A DNA stretch of 33,395 nt from positions 1-33,395 of the forward strand of contig CANQYE010000012.1 of NCBI GenBank assembly GCA_947627995.1. The letters run 5' to 3'. How positions within the stretch are numbered: the stretch's first letter is position 1; each line of letters begins with the position of its first letter. Made by a program: the position numbers and the translations under genes. This DNA is from an uncultured Bacilli bacterium (lineage in GTDB: Bacteria; Bacillota_I; Bacilli_A; RF39; UBA660). The notes beneath the pieces were generated by a model that worked only from the letters and a program-made list of their open reading frames with translations, was not told the DNA's origin and ran no database searches. This document shows, one piece after another, positions 2 through 33,395 of the stretch.

Positions 2-604
2 TATAATAAAAGAAGTTTAGAAAATGCAAGTGATACATTAATAGACAAATCAGGAAATAGATATAATGGAAAAGTAGTAGGTGCAACAAGTACAAGTGAA
101 GGTCTTTCATTTGATGGGACAAATGATGGCGTGATAATAGGTGAGCTTAATTATGATTATGTTACTTTGGAAACAGAAGTTAAAATTAATAATTTTTCAT
201 CTACTTATATGTGTACTATTGCTAATTTGCAAACAGGTGGATATGCTATAAGATTTTATAAACAACAAGTTCAGTCTATTATTTACGTAGGATCATATCG
301 TAGTTTTAATAGTACATCAAATTTAGCTACAGAAACTAAATATCACCTAGTAACAACATATGATGGAAAGGATATTAAATTATACATTGATGGTAAATTA
401 CAATCAACATCTATTCATGTTTCAGATACATTGACACCAGTCGGAAAGCCAGGAAATAAAACAAACTTAGCTTTAGGATGTAATCCTGATGGAGTAAGAT
501 GTTATGATGAATATTTTAACGGAACAATATCCAATGTAAAAGTATATAGTAGAGCATTAACAGCCGATGAAGTATTAAAAAATTATAATGCTTTACAAAA
601 TTAA
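2..604 (+). CDS. Secreted LamG-like (concanavalin A-fold) surface protein, 5' end outside window
   Basis: The frame is open from base 2 to a TAA at 602-604, so only the C-terminal ~200 residues are visible and the true start lies upstream of the window. The segment reads as a LamG/laminin-G-like jelly roll: a LSFDGTNDGV strand near its start, then YHLVTTYDGKDIKLYIDGKL, and a closing FNGTISNVKVYSRALTADEV, which is the typical end of LamG3-type domains. Such domains bind glycans or host and matrix ligands in secreted proteins. No anchor (LPXTG or C-terminal membrane helix) is present. The missing part probably holds a signal peptide, and by analogy with the gene at 32240 it may carry a SipW/TasA-like N-terminal domain; that is inference. 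The family call is fairly secure; ligand and exact role are unknown. Confidence 0.75.
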   Translation, partial: YNKRSLENASDTLIDKSGNRYNGKVVGATSTSEGLSFDGTNDGVIIGELNYDYVTLETEVKINNFSSTYMCTIANLQTGGYAIRFYKQQVQSIIYVGSYRSFNSTSNLATETKYHLVTTYDGKDIKLYIDGKLQSTSIHVSDTLTPVGKPGNKTNLALGCNPDGVRCYDEYFNGTISNVKVYSRALTADEVLKNYNALQN

Positions 605-31806: not shown

Positions 31807-32151
31807 ATGTTATATCGTAAACTGGGAAGAAATAATAAAATCAGAAGAAGTATCTTAGCGGGACTTACAAAAGATGTTATTATGAAAGAAAGTATTGTAA
31901 CAACTATATCTCGAGCTAAAGAAGTTAGAAAATTTGTTGATAAAATGATTACATATGGAAAAAACGGCAGTCTAGTATCTAGACGTAAAGCGTTAGCTTT
32001 CTTACATAATGATAATAATGTTGTATCAAAAATATTTAATGAACTTGCTCCACGTTATAAAGATCGTAATGGCGGATACACTAGAATAATTAAACTTAAA
32101 GAACGTGTTGGAGACGATGCTTTAACTGTAAAATTAGAATTAGTTAAATAA
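31807..32151 (+). CDS. rplQ: 50S ribosomal protein L17
   Basis: 114 residues, the last gene of the operon. MLYRKLGRNNKIRRSILAGL, TTISRAKEVRKFVDKMITYG, and a GGYTRIIKLKERVGDDA end identify L17, which sits at the tunnel exit. A terminator starts at its last stop base. In Bacillus the next genes are ecfA1, ecfA2, ecfT and truA; here a surface protein gene follows instead. Confidence 0.98.
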   Translation: MLYRKLGRNNKIRRSILAGLTKDVIMKESIVTTISRAKEVRKFVDKMITYGKNGSLVSRRKALAFLHNDNNVVSKIFNELAPRYKDRNGGYTRIIKLKERVGDDALTVKLELVK

Positions 32152-32175
32152 AACTGCTATGCAGTTTTTTTATTT
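32151..32175 (+). terminator. Terminator of the S10-spc-alpha operon
   Basis: AAACTGC (32151-32157) pairs with GCAGTTT (32161-32167) around a TAT loop, then T-rich sequence. The stem begins with the final A of the rplQ stop codon. Confidence 0.9.
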
Positions 32176-32184
32176 TATAATTTC

Positions 32185-32214
32185 TTGACCGAGGAGGGAA
32201 TAATTTTATATAAT
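32185..32214 (+). promoter_or_regulatory. Promoter of surface gene 1
   Basis: TTGACC (32185-32190) and a perfect TATAAT (32209-32214) with an 18-base spacer. The spacer contains GAGGAGGG, which resembles a ribosome-binding site but is 40 bases from the ATG and lies upstream of the transcript start. A start near 32221 gives a leader of about 19 bases with only a weak AAGG as ribosome-binding site. Confidence 0.75.
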
Positions 32215-32233
32215 CTTACTAGAAAGTAAGGTT
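32212..32233 (+). repeat. Inverted repeat over the -10/+1 region of surface gene 1
   Basis: CTTACT (32215-32220) and AGTAAG (32225-32230) flank AGAA; the pairing extends to 9 bp with one G-T pair, followed by TTTTT up to 32236. Its position over the predicted start site suits an operator. Read in a transcript from upstream it would look like a terminator. Confidence 0.7.
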
Positions 32234-32239
32234 TTTAAA

Positions 32240-33277
32240 ATGAGTAAAAAAAGGATGGTAGCATTAATAATAATAGGAATAATGATAGTAGTGCTAACAA
32301 TAGGGGGAACATATGCATACTTTAGTGCAGTAGTAAAAGGGAATGCAGAGAATAAAAATGCAGAAGTAAGCACAGGAACATTATCATTAAGTTTTGCAGA
32401 TAAAACAGGGAATATAAATATTGATAATATGCAACCTGGAACTTGGTGGGAAAAAAGAGTAATAGTAAAAAATACTGGTACCATACCTGTAAATTTTGAT
32501 CTACTTTTTTTAAAATTAAATAATCAAATAGAAAATGGTGAATTAAGAATTTCTATATATTGTACAAAAGGTGTTGAATTAGAAAATAATGACTATAGCT
32601 ATAAAAATTTAAATGATAAAAAATATTTTTGTAATAATTTTTCTTCAACTTATGTTTTAAATGAAAGATCTATTCCTAAACAAGATGGAGAAAATATAAA
32701 ACTTGTTAATAATATAAATATAAATCCACAAGATACTTATACTTTTTATATAAATTTTTTATTTAAGGAAACAAAAGAAAATCAAGATTATAATCAAGGA
32801 AAAGTATTTAATGGAAATATTGGAATAAAAGAAAGTGGAACATATGAAATAAATTACTTTAATGAAGTAATAGATGGAAATATAACAATAACAAATAACA
32901 AAAATGATATAATATCGAAAAATTTGTTATTATACAATTTAATGAAACCAAACACTAGATATAGATTATCGTGTGAAATTGAAGCGACAGATGCATTATT
33001 TAATACTCATAGTACGTCAGCAAATGCTTTTTCAAGATATGGTTGTTATGTCCATACAATAGCAAATCATAATGATTATTGGTATGGGGATTCTGTGAAA
33101 TATTTAAATAGTAATAATACATCTGCTAATAGAAATGCTTCTAAACAAAGATTATATTCAGAGTTTACAACTAATGAATATGAAATAAGTCAATCAACAG
33201 TTATTATGCAAATTATCGTTGATGGAATAAATGAAAATGTAAAAGTAGGCAATGTAATTTTAGAAGAAATTGATTAA
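32240..33277 (+). CDS. Secreted modular surface protein: SipW/TasA-like N-terminal domain and jelly-roll C-terminal domain
   Basis: 345 residues. A signal peptide (MSKKRMVALI, hydrophobic to ~21) ends in GGTYAYFSA (22-30), the site typical of proteins cut by the SipW-type signal peptidase. Residues ~31-200 fit a TasA/camelysin-like beta-sandwich: AEVSTGTLSLSF (41-52), then MQPGTWWEKRVIVKNTGTIP (64-83). TasA homologues form extracellular fibres or matrix. The second half (~200-345) resembles a carbohydrate-binding or tail-type jelly roll: MKPNTRYRLSCEIEAT and a closing IIVDGINENVKVGNVILEE. No sortase motif or C-terminal anchor is present. It follows the operon terminator, has its own promoter, and a near-copy of its head begins 1,125 bp later. 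No sipW gene is in the window. Confidence 0.8.
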   Translation: MSKKRMVALIIIGIMIVVLTIGGTYAYFSAVVKGNAENKNAEVSTGTLSLSFADKTGNINIDNMQPGTWWEKRVIVKNTGTIPVNFDLLFLKLNNQIENGELRISIYCTKGVELENNDYSYKNLNDKKYFCNNFSSTYVLNERSIPKQDGENIKLVNNININPQDTYTFYINFLFKETKENQDYNQGKVFNGNIGIKESGTYEINYFNEVIDGNITITNNKNDIISKNLLLYNLMKPNTRYRLSCEIEATDALFNTHSTSANAFSRYGCYVHTIANHNDYWYGDSVKYLNSNNTSANRNASKQRLYSEFTTNEYEISQSTVIMQIIVDGINENVKVGNVILEEID

Positions 33278-33294
33278 AATTATATAATCTTAAA

Positions 33295-33306
33295 TTTATT
33301 CACAAC
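33295..33306 (+). repeat. 12-bp motif shared by the 3' flanks of both surface genes
   Basis: TTTATTCACAAC occurs here, 17 bases after the stop of the surface gene and directly before the second 89-bp repeat, and also at 609-620, four bases after the stop of the LamG-like gene. It may mark a cassette boundary; two copies are too few to be sure. Confidence 0.45.
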
Positions 33307-33309
33307 TTC

Positions 33310-33339
33310 TTGACCGAGGAGGGAATAATTTTATATAAT
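33310..33339 (+). promoter_or_regulatory. Promoter of surface gene 2
   Basis: Identical in all bases to the promoter at 32185: TTGACC, 18-base spacer, TATAAT. A 13-base copy of its TTATATAATCTTA portion also lies 51 bases upstream at 33280-33292. Confidence 0.75.
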
Positions 33340-33364
33340 CTTACTAGAAAGTAAGGTTTTTAAA

Positions 33365-33395
33365 ATGGGTAAAAAAAGGATGGTAGCATTAATAA
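33365..33395 (+). CDS. Start of a second SipW/TasA-like surface protein, 3' end outside window
   Basis: Only the first ten codons are visible: MGKKRMVALI, equal to the first gene except Gly for Ser at position 2. The promoter and leader are also equal. This shows a second member of the same secreted family in tandem; what follows the signal peptide cannot be seen. Confidence 0.8.
   Translation, partial: MGKKRMVALI

Follow-up and report, generated by a model that had tools for sequence, protein, structure and literature searches.

A dispersed family of TasA-like surface-protein genes with poly-G promoter spacers, a candidate for slippage-based phase variation in uncultured gut Bacilli

The window analyzed here, a stretch of 33,395 nucleotides, is the entire contig C12 of a 969 kb genome assembled in 27 contigs (22-32% GC). 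Its right end carries a surface-protein gene and the beginning of a second one, and its left end carries the tail of a third (Table 1). The 89 bases at 32182-32270 recur at 33307-33395 with one mismatch, as the first-pass annotation had described; the sole difference, A/G at position 32243, changes codon 2 between Ser and Gly. Because the next best match to this 89-mer, on either strand of the whole window, has 43 mismatches, the pair is not a product of chance; it can be extended to 97 bases at 96%. The second copy stops at 33395 because the assembly stopped there. The remainder of the open reading frame at 32240-33277 has no match elsewhere in the window at the DNA or protein level, again as first read.

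Table 1. Features of the surface-protein family in the window.
Feature	Position	Strand	Support
LamG (concanavalin A-like) tail, the 3' part of another member; the left contig end cuts off its constant domain	2..604	+	PF13385, E=8e-21
Terminator-like hairpin after rplQ, between the ribosomal operon and the cassette	32150..32168	+	1 found, 0.1 expected
Copy 1 promoter: TTGACC (32185-32190), 18-base spacer, TATAAT (32209-32214)	32185..32214	+	11/12 consensus; common to four genomic copies
GAGGAGGG, interrupted version of the spacer tract (G8/G9 in the C6 and C14 sisters)	32191..32198	+	
Predicted SipW-class TasA/camelysin-like surface protein, 345 aa	32240..33277	+	PF12389, E=2e-10; TIGR04088 above cut-off
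Copy 2 promoter, sequence and spacer (18) as in copy 1	33310..33339	+	
Second tandem member, initial 10 codons (MGKKRMVALI), truncated by the contig end	33365..33395	+	

The repeat had been said to hold a promoter, an inverted repeat, and 10 codons of a secreted protein. The promoter and the codons are borne out: the two TTGACC-18-TATAAT sites are the best two promoter-like sites of the region, both of sigma-A type and matching 11 of the 12 consensus positions. The inverted repeat, CTTACTAGAAAGTAAG, is a different matter. Its arms are only 5 bases long, around a loop of 6 bases, and it begins immediately 3' of the -10 box, so that it overlaps the expected transcription start and ribosome-binding site. 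We assign it no role, since the leader RNA folds no better than shuffled sequences (z = -1.0); Rfam also returned no match to the leader, and we rejected it as an RNA element.

From its domain and signal matches, the 345-aa product is predicted to be a TasA/camelysin-like protein exported through SipW. It consists of a signal with the motif GGTYAYFS, a constant domain extending to about residue 189, and a C-terminal tail of its own. The Peptidase_M73/camelysin domain (PF12389) scores 41.3 bits against a curated cut-off of 22.5 and the SipW-type signal peptide (TIGR04088) 21.7 bits against 19. We call the protein TasA-like only, because its score on the TasA equivalog proper (NF046066) is 31.3 bits where 450 are required. 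The same genome encodes a SipW-class signal peptidase at C5:37048-37563 (TIGR02228, 95.3 bits against 51.85), near another open reading frame with a SipW signal at C5:34881. The product is 38% identical to paralogs of the type found in the relative G035, and a profile of it and four relatives had 5of1 and 8aur, both TasA structures, as its only matches, at weak scores (E about 5e-4). Residues 190-345, the 156-residue tail, matched no Pfam family; structure models were poor (pLDDT 45 and 52), and a fold search gave just matches of TM 0.2-0.3, which we did not use. The system resembles TasA, BsaA, and camelysin (CalY) of Bacillus in its SipW-type signal, its M73/TasA-like domain, and the SipW-class peptidase in the genome. 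It differs in being multi-copy, with own promoters and additional variable C-terminal domains, and, compared with Bacillus TasA, in lying outside any tapA-sipW-tasA operon, with 31 of 450 bits on the equivalog.

The first-pass annotation placed the repeat at the left edge of one array. Additional copies of the head do exist outside the window, on contigs C14 and C6 of the same genome, but a single tandem array beginning at 32182 is ruled out because the copies are mostly dispersed. The head is present four times at three loci: two copies are in the window, and there is one each at the right end of C14 (following ftsY-ylxM) and the left end of C6 (following ezrA). Family members mostly lie scattered beside housekeeping genes (after rplQ, between ylxM and ffh, after ezrA, before uvrC), one tandem pair is proven, and another member occupies the window's left edge. 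With six distinct tails, the family has at least six members. The LamG tail at 2-604 is also found at the ends of C3, C4, C13, and C14, and in G035 a LamG-like tail, 'YNKRSLENASDTLIDKSGNRYNGK...', comes after the same TasA-like constant domain. Eight of the 51 contig ends examined fall within the family (3 heads, 5 tails); the bodies of its members are missing from the assembly because they are repeats. Further contig breaks (C8/C21, C11/C18, C17/C22, C10/C25) fall in long internally repeated proteins, with ~70-aa repeats, LysM-like repeats, and others.

The adjacency of ylxM and ffh is established in other bacteria. The left end of C13 carries the final residues of a LamG-type tail followed by ffh, and we infer a join: C14-right and C13-left very probably flank one surface gene inserted between ylxM and ffh. 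A surface-protein gene thus apparently sits inside the signal-recognition-particle cluster (L007 right end, L329 left end). Homology among the dispersed copies (window 32150-32240; L007, L008, L321, L330) starts just 5' of the -35 box and ends at the stop codon or within about 22 bases of it. These limits point to the promoter plus the gene as the unit that spreads.

The family shares its promoter, leader, and secretion signal while the exposed domains vary, as the first reading proposed; domain matches, head and tail identities, and silent sites all bear this out. In paralogs of the relative G157, identity is 83-93% over residues 1-120 and falls to 14-42% beyond them; in those of G035, it is 94-99% over residues 1-200, 83% over 200-250, and 24-38% over 250-350. 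The host genome's LamG domains are 86-95% identical at their edges and 12-63% in the middle. The silent sites of the shared parts are homogenized, as gene conversion or recombination would do. Among five G035 paralogs, pS is 0.06-0.12 in the head and 0.43 in the tail (tail pN 0.45); in G157 it is 0.28-0.34 in the head against 0.57-0.59 in the tail; and in the host's LamG domains it rises from 0.17 at the domain start to 0.44 in mid-domain. Since selection on the protein alone would not reduce silent divergence, these values indicate recombination or a recent spread of heads, and part of the signal could reflect recent spread rather than ongoing conversion.

Recombinational antigenic variation by itself, with tails swapped through the shared head (an exchange that the first-pass annotation had suggested) and promoter slippage playing no part, would account for conserved heads, divergent tails, and silent sites homogenized in the heads and at the LamG tail edges. 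It would not explain the G tract in the promoter spacer described below, and we see no single expression site: each head seen carries its own promoter, although the promoters of most LamG-tail copies are unassembled. An expression site served by promoterless silent cassettes was therefore rejected, and exchange into such a site is not needed. We regard recombination without slippage as very improbable.

The spacer went unremarked in the first reading, and it offers a possible switch that works without recombination. In the four heads, the first half of the spacer reads GAGGAGGG, GAGGAGGG, G8, and G9, with spacer lengths of 18, 18, 18, and 19. An uninterrupted homopolymer lies exactly between the -35 and -10 boxes in the C6 head after ezrA (G8, spacer 18) and in the C14 head after ylxM (G9, spacer 19); both window copies have the interrupted form. 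The host genome contains nine sites with at least seven G's, five of them directly behind a promoter TTGAC. Two of the five are those of the heads, two more precede genes for other exported proteins, and the fifth precedes an EsaB/YukD plus WXG100-like pair; the spacers of these promoters are 16-20. The promoter of the pair (L048, G000:C9:32000-40000; tract at C9:34912) is TTGACG-16-TATTAT with G8 and is followed by an EsaB/YukD-like gene and a WXG100-like one, a hint that poly-G spacer promoters extend to a type VII secretion locus; G009 (L080) has a comparable YukD-like case. The remaining four runs, each of 8 G's (C2:2780, C7:27635, C13:10881, and C16:14949 of G000), lie outside promoters. 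Those on C2, C7, and C13 are in frame within long open reading frames and could be candidate coding contingency tracts. Loss of mismatch repair was rejected as the cause of the G tracts, as mutS1 is present in the host genome and in 137/145 relatives.

We searched relatives for the pattern TTGAC-(0-4)-G7-(4-14)-TATNNT, with 7 or more G's. Within the family, which is presumably RF39-like, 25 of the 145 genomes searched, each from a different genus, have it and the other 120 do not; the search gave 185 match rows, which include overlapping matches, and the reversed control gave 1. A second draw found it in 39/193 genomes, with 0 reversed matches, and a class-wide draw in 11/38 family genomes versus 4/258 others. 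Inside one genus, counts range from none to tens. Counted as distinct places from the listing, the pattern occurs at 38 sites in G177, 39 in G212, and 26 in G157; the genomes with 38-39 are ~1.1-1.3 Mb in size. The G run in the sister copies and in many relatives is 7-11 long. A poly-C mirror of the pattern gave 2 matches, in one genome. Spread by viruses was rejected, since the head is absent from viral contigs and the general pattern has merely 5 scattered viral matches, as was a defense system, PADLOC giving no match. In G021, there are 35 matches to the backward C pattern (AACTG-G7-ATANNA on the opposite strand) and none to the promoter pattern; a wider-gap pattern aimed at these control counts found nothing in that genome, which may have a different G-tract arrangement.

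Among the matches listed in a scan of named genomes, most are from uncultured Bacilli of rabbit cecum and also goat cecum; some are from Clostridia, Faecalibacterium, Ancillula, and the complete Treponema ruminis genome, and some of the matches in high-GC genomes are probably chance. Uncultured Clostridia, mostly from rabbit gut, have poly-G spacer promoters before lipoprotein genes (L116, L126, L159, L176, L191, L206), suggesting that the same device occurs beyond the Bacilli family. Several contigs of Faecalibacterium and similar genomes (L130, L151, L158, L204) have a recurring TTGACACC-G8/G10-TATG(C/T)TATAAT together with a common short start, MGLYLLYTI, with G8 and G10 versions in one genome (L130, L158). 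Candidatus Ancillula Gsp477_bin129 (L135, L145, L165) shows a length series within one genome, G9, G12, and G13, in similar promoters of the form TTGACAAG..-Gn-TGCTATAAT.

The poly-G promoters mostly precede secreted proteins. An N-terminal hydrophobic segment is found in 91/98 downstream genes compared with 61/219 other genes at the same family loci (p = 2e-29, a value inflated by paralogs, with the direction unaffected). The named downstream families are SipW/TasA/BsaA, LPXTG surface proteins, TafC, LamG, a type IV pilin-like protein, and one P-type ATPase.

Tract length was read from the consensus of assembled MAGs, one genome per species, and the differences seen with unchanged flanks are between paralogs (G212, G097). 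In G212, 39 promoters have the common form TTGACACC-Gn-TAATATATAAT. The tract departs from its modal length in 16/39 copies (41%), compared with changes at 3/312 free flank sites (1%). Spacers of 14, 15, 16, and 17 occur 8, 22, 6, and 2 times, so that 30 of the 38 scored promoters are at 14-15. Three tandem copies in G097 have G9, G10, and G11 between identical flanks, and tract length also varies in G157, G161, G076, G249, and G109. In contrast, tracts are near-uniform in G035 (11/12 at G8) and G080 (17/21 at G9), and this is the main fact against switching. The lack of the pattern in most of the family genomes, and the interrupted tracts of the window copies, also speak against it.

Such uniformity is what one would see if the G tract were a fixed promoter element, for example a regulator binding site or a matter of spacer composition, that coordinates surface genes without switching, the heads being plain duplicates. 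The concentration of spacers at 15-16 in several genomes fits this idea, as does the restriction to G, and not C, on the coding strand, a requirement that slippage alone would not impose. Against it, nothing in the otherwise identical G212 promoters varies nearly as much as tract length, the six other genomes with differing tracts vary too, and the spacers seen, from 14 to 21, straddle the known optimum. We consider a static element unlikely, though it deserves weight.

The draft state of the MAGs raises the question of artefact: misassembly, or read errors in poly-G, could have created both the second copy and the G tracts. All the genomes are draft MAGs, the window terminates within the repeat, and many relatives' heads lie at contig ends. 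Short-read assembly breaks at genuine multi-copy sequence, however, and copy 2 is preceded by sequence of its own and shows the codon-2 difference. The G tracts occupy a single promoter position within contigs, in rabbit as well as goat MAGs, and the reversed pattern has almost no matches. An artefact is scarcely credible.

We think it probable that this is a dispersed family of SipW-exported, TasA-like proteins, controlled promoter by promoter through slippage in the G tract, with recombination among heads and divergence of tails. The shared head would supply the export signal and a standard promoter, and a constant head would carry variable C-terminal tails, often LamG lectin-like. Sigma-A RNA polymerase prefers spacers of 16-18. 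Slipped-strand mispairing would add or remove G's and move the spacer through 14-21 around this preferred length, so that chance would set each copy to strong, weak, or silent. Head-to-head recombination would keep the heads alike while the tails diverge, building a repertoire. Both window copies have A's within the tract and should be locked near the optimum; the copies after ezrA and ylxM, with uninterrupted tracts, should still switch. The position of the tract and the length differences between paralogs make phase variation of the porA type, at unusual scale in uncultured gut Bacilli, the best reading. Slippage within strains and an effect on expression are predicted on this reading, and the surface role of the family is likewise putative.

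We lean, with some reserve, towards a broader reading: a genome-wide stochastic surface program in which a genome of ~1.1-1.3 Mb has tens of genes for exported proteins, every one with its own slippable poly-G promoter, few are on in any cell, heads recombine, and tails diversify. That few copies would be on follows from most being at sub-optimal spacing, as in G212. Few known promoter-slippage repertoires would be as dense, and none before it would have been linked to TasA/SipW export.

Phase variation by tract slippage has been described mainly in Gram-negative mucosal pathogens. The variable lipoproteins of Mycoplasma, which switch at promoters (vlp, with poly-A tracts) or by vsa/mpl-type recombination, offer a parallel, in that the genomes are small and carry numerous surface genes whose 5' ends are conserved while their tails diverge. 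Mycoplasma uses poly-A tracts or inversions and lipoprotein signals, whereas here the tracts are poly-G and the proteins mostly SipW-type or otherwise membrane-anchored. A close likeness in mechanism is porA of Neisseria meningitidis, for which promoter-spacer phase variation is reported (van der Ende et al, 1995, as cited in PMC5084427). There, too, a homopolymer between the -35 and -10 boxes of a surface-protein gene sets spacer length and thereby transcription. The porA type concerns one or few genes in a Gram-negative pathogen, whereas here there are up to 38-39 promoters per ~1.1-1.3 Mb genome, the tract is G on the coding strand only and tied to paralog families with shared heads, and switching is a prediction from sequence. 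The simple-sequence contingency loci of Neisseria, Helicobacter, and Campylobacter likewise have homopolymeric G/C tracts with surface functions (PMC5084427, PMC2823697, PMC8355987); theirs are mostly in reading frames or off the core promoter, while here dozens of genes have the tract at one fixed core-promoter position. In the open-access literature, with subscription journals and preprints outside our scope, we found no report of poly-G spacer switching in uncultured gut Bacilli.

The repeat family also accounts for the way assemblies in this group are interrupted at their surface genes and lose just those, and the proposed switching is testable on existing metagenome reads through mixtures of tract lengths. 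It is probable that the surface coat of these commensals varies in a random way; if this is true, gut bacteria with small genomes would change their coat against immunity, phages, or shifting glycans without the need for regulators.
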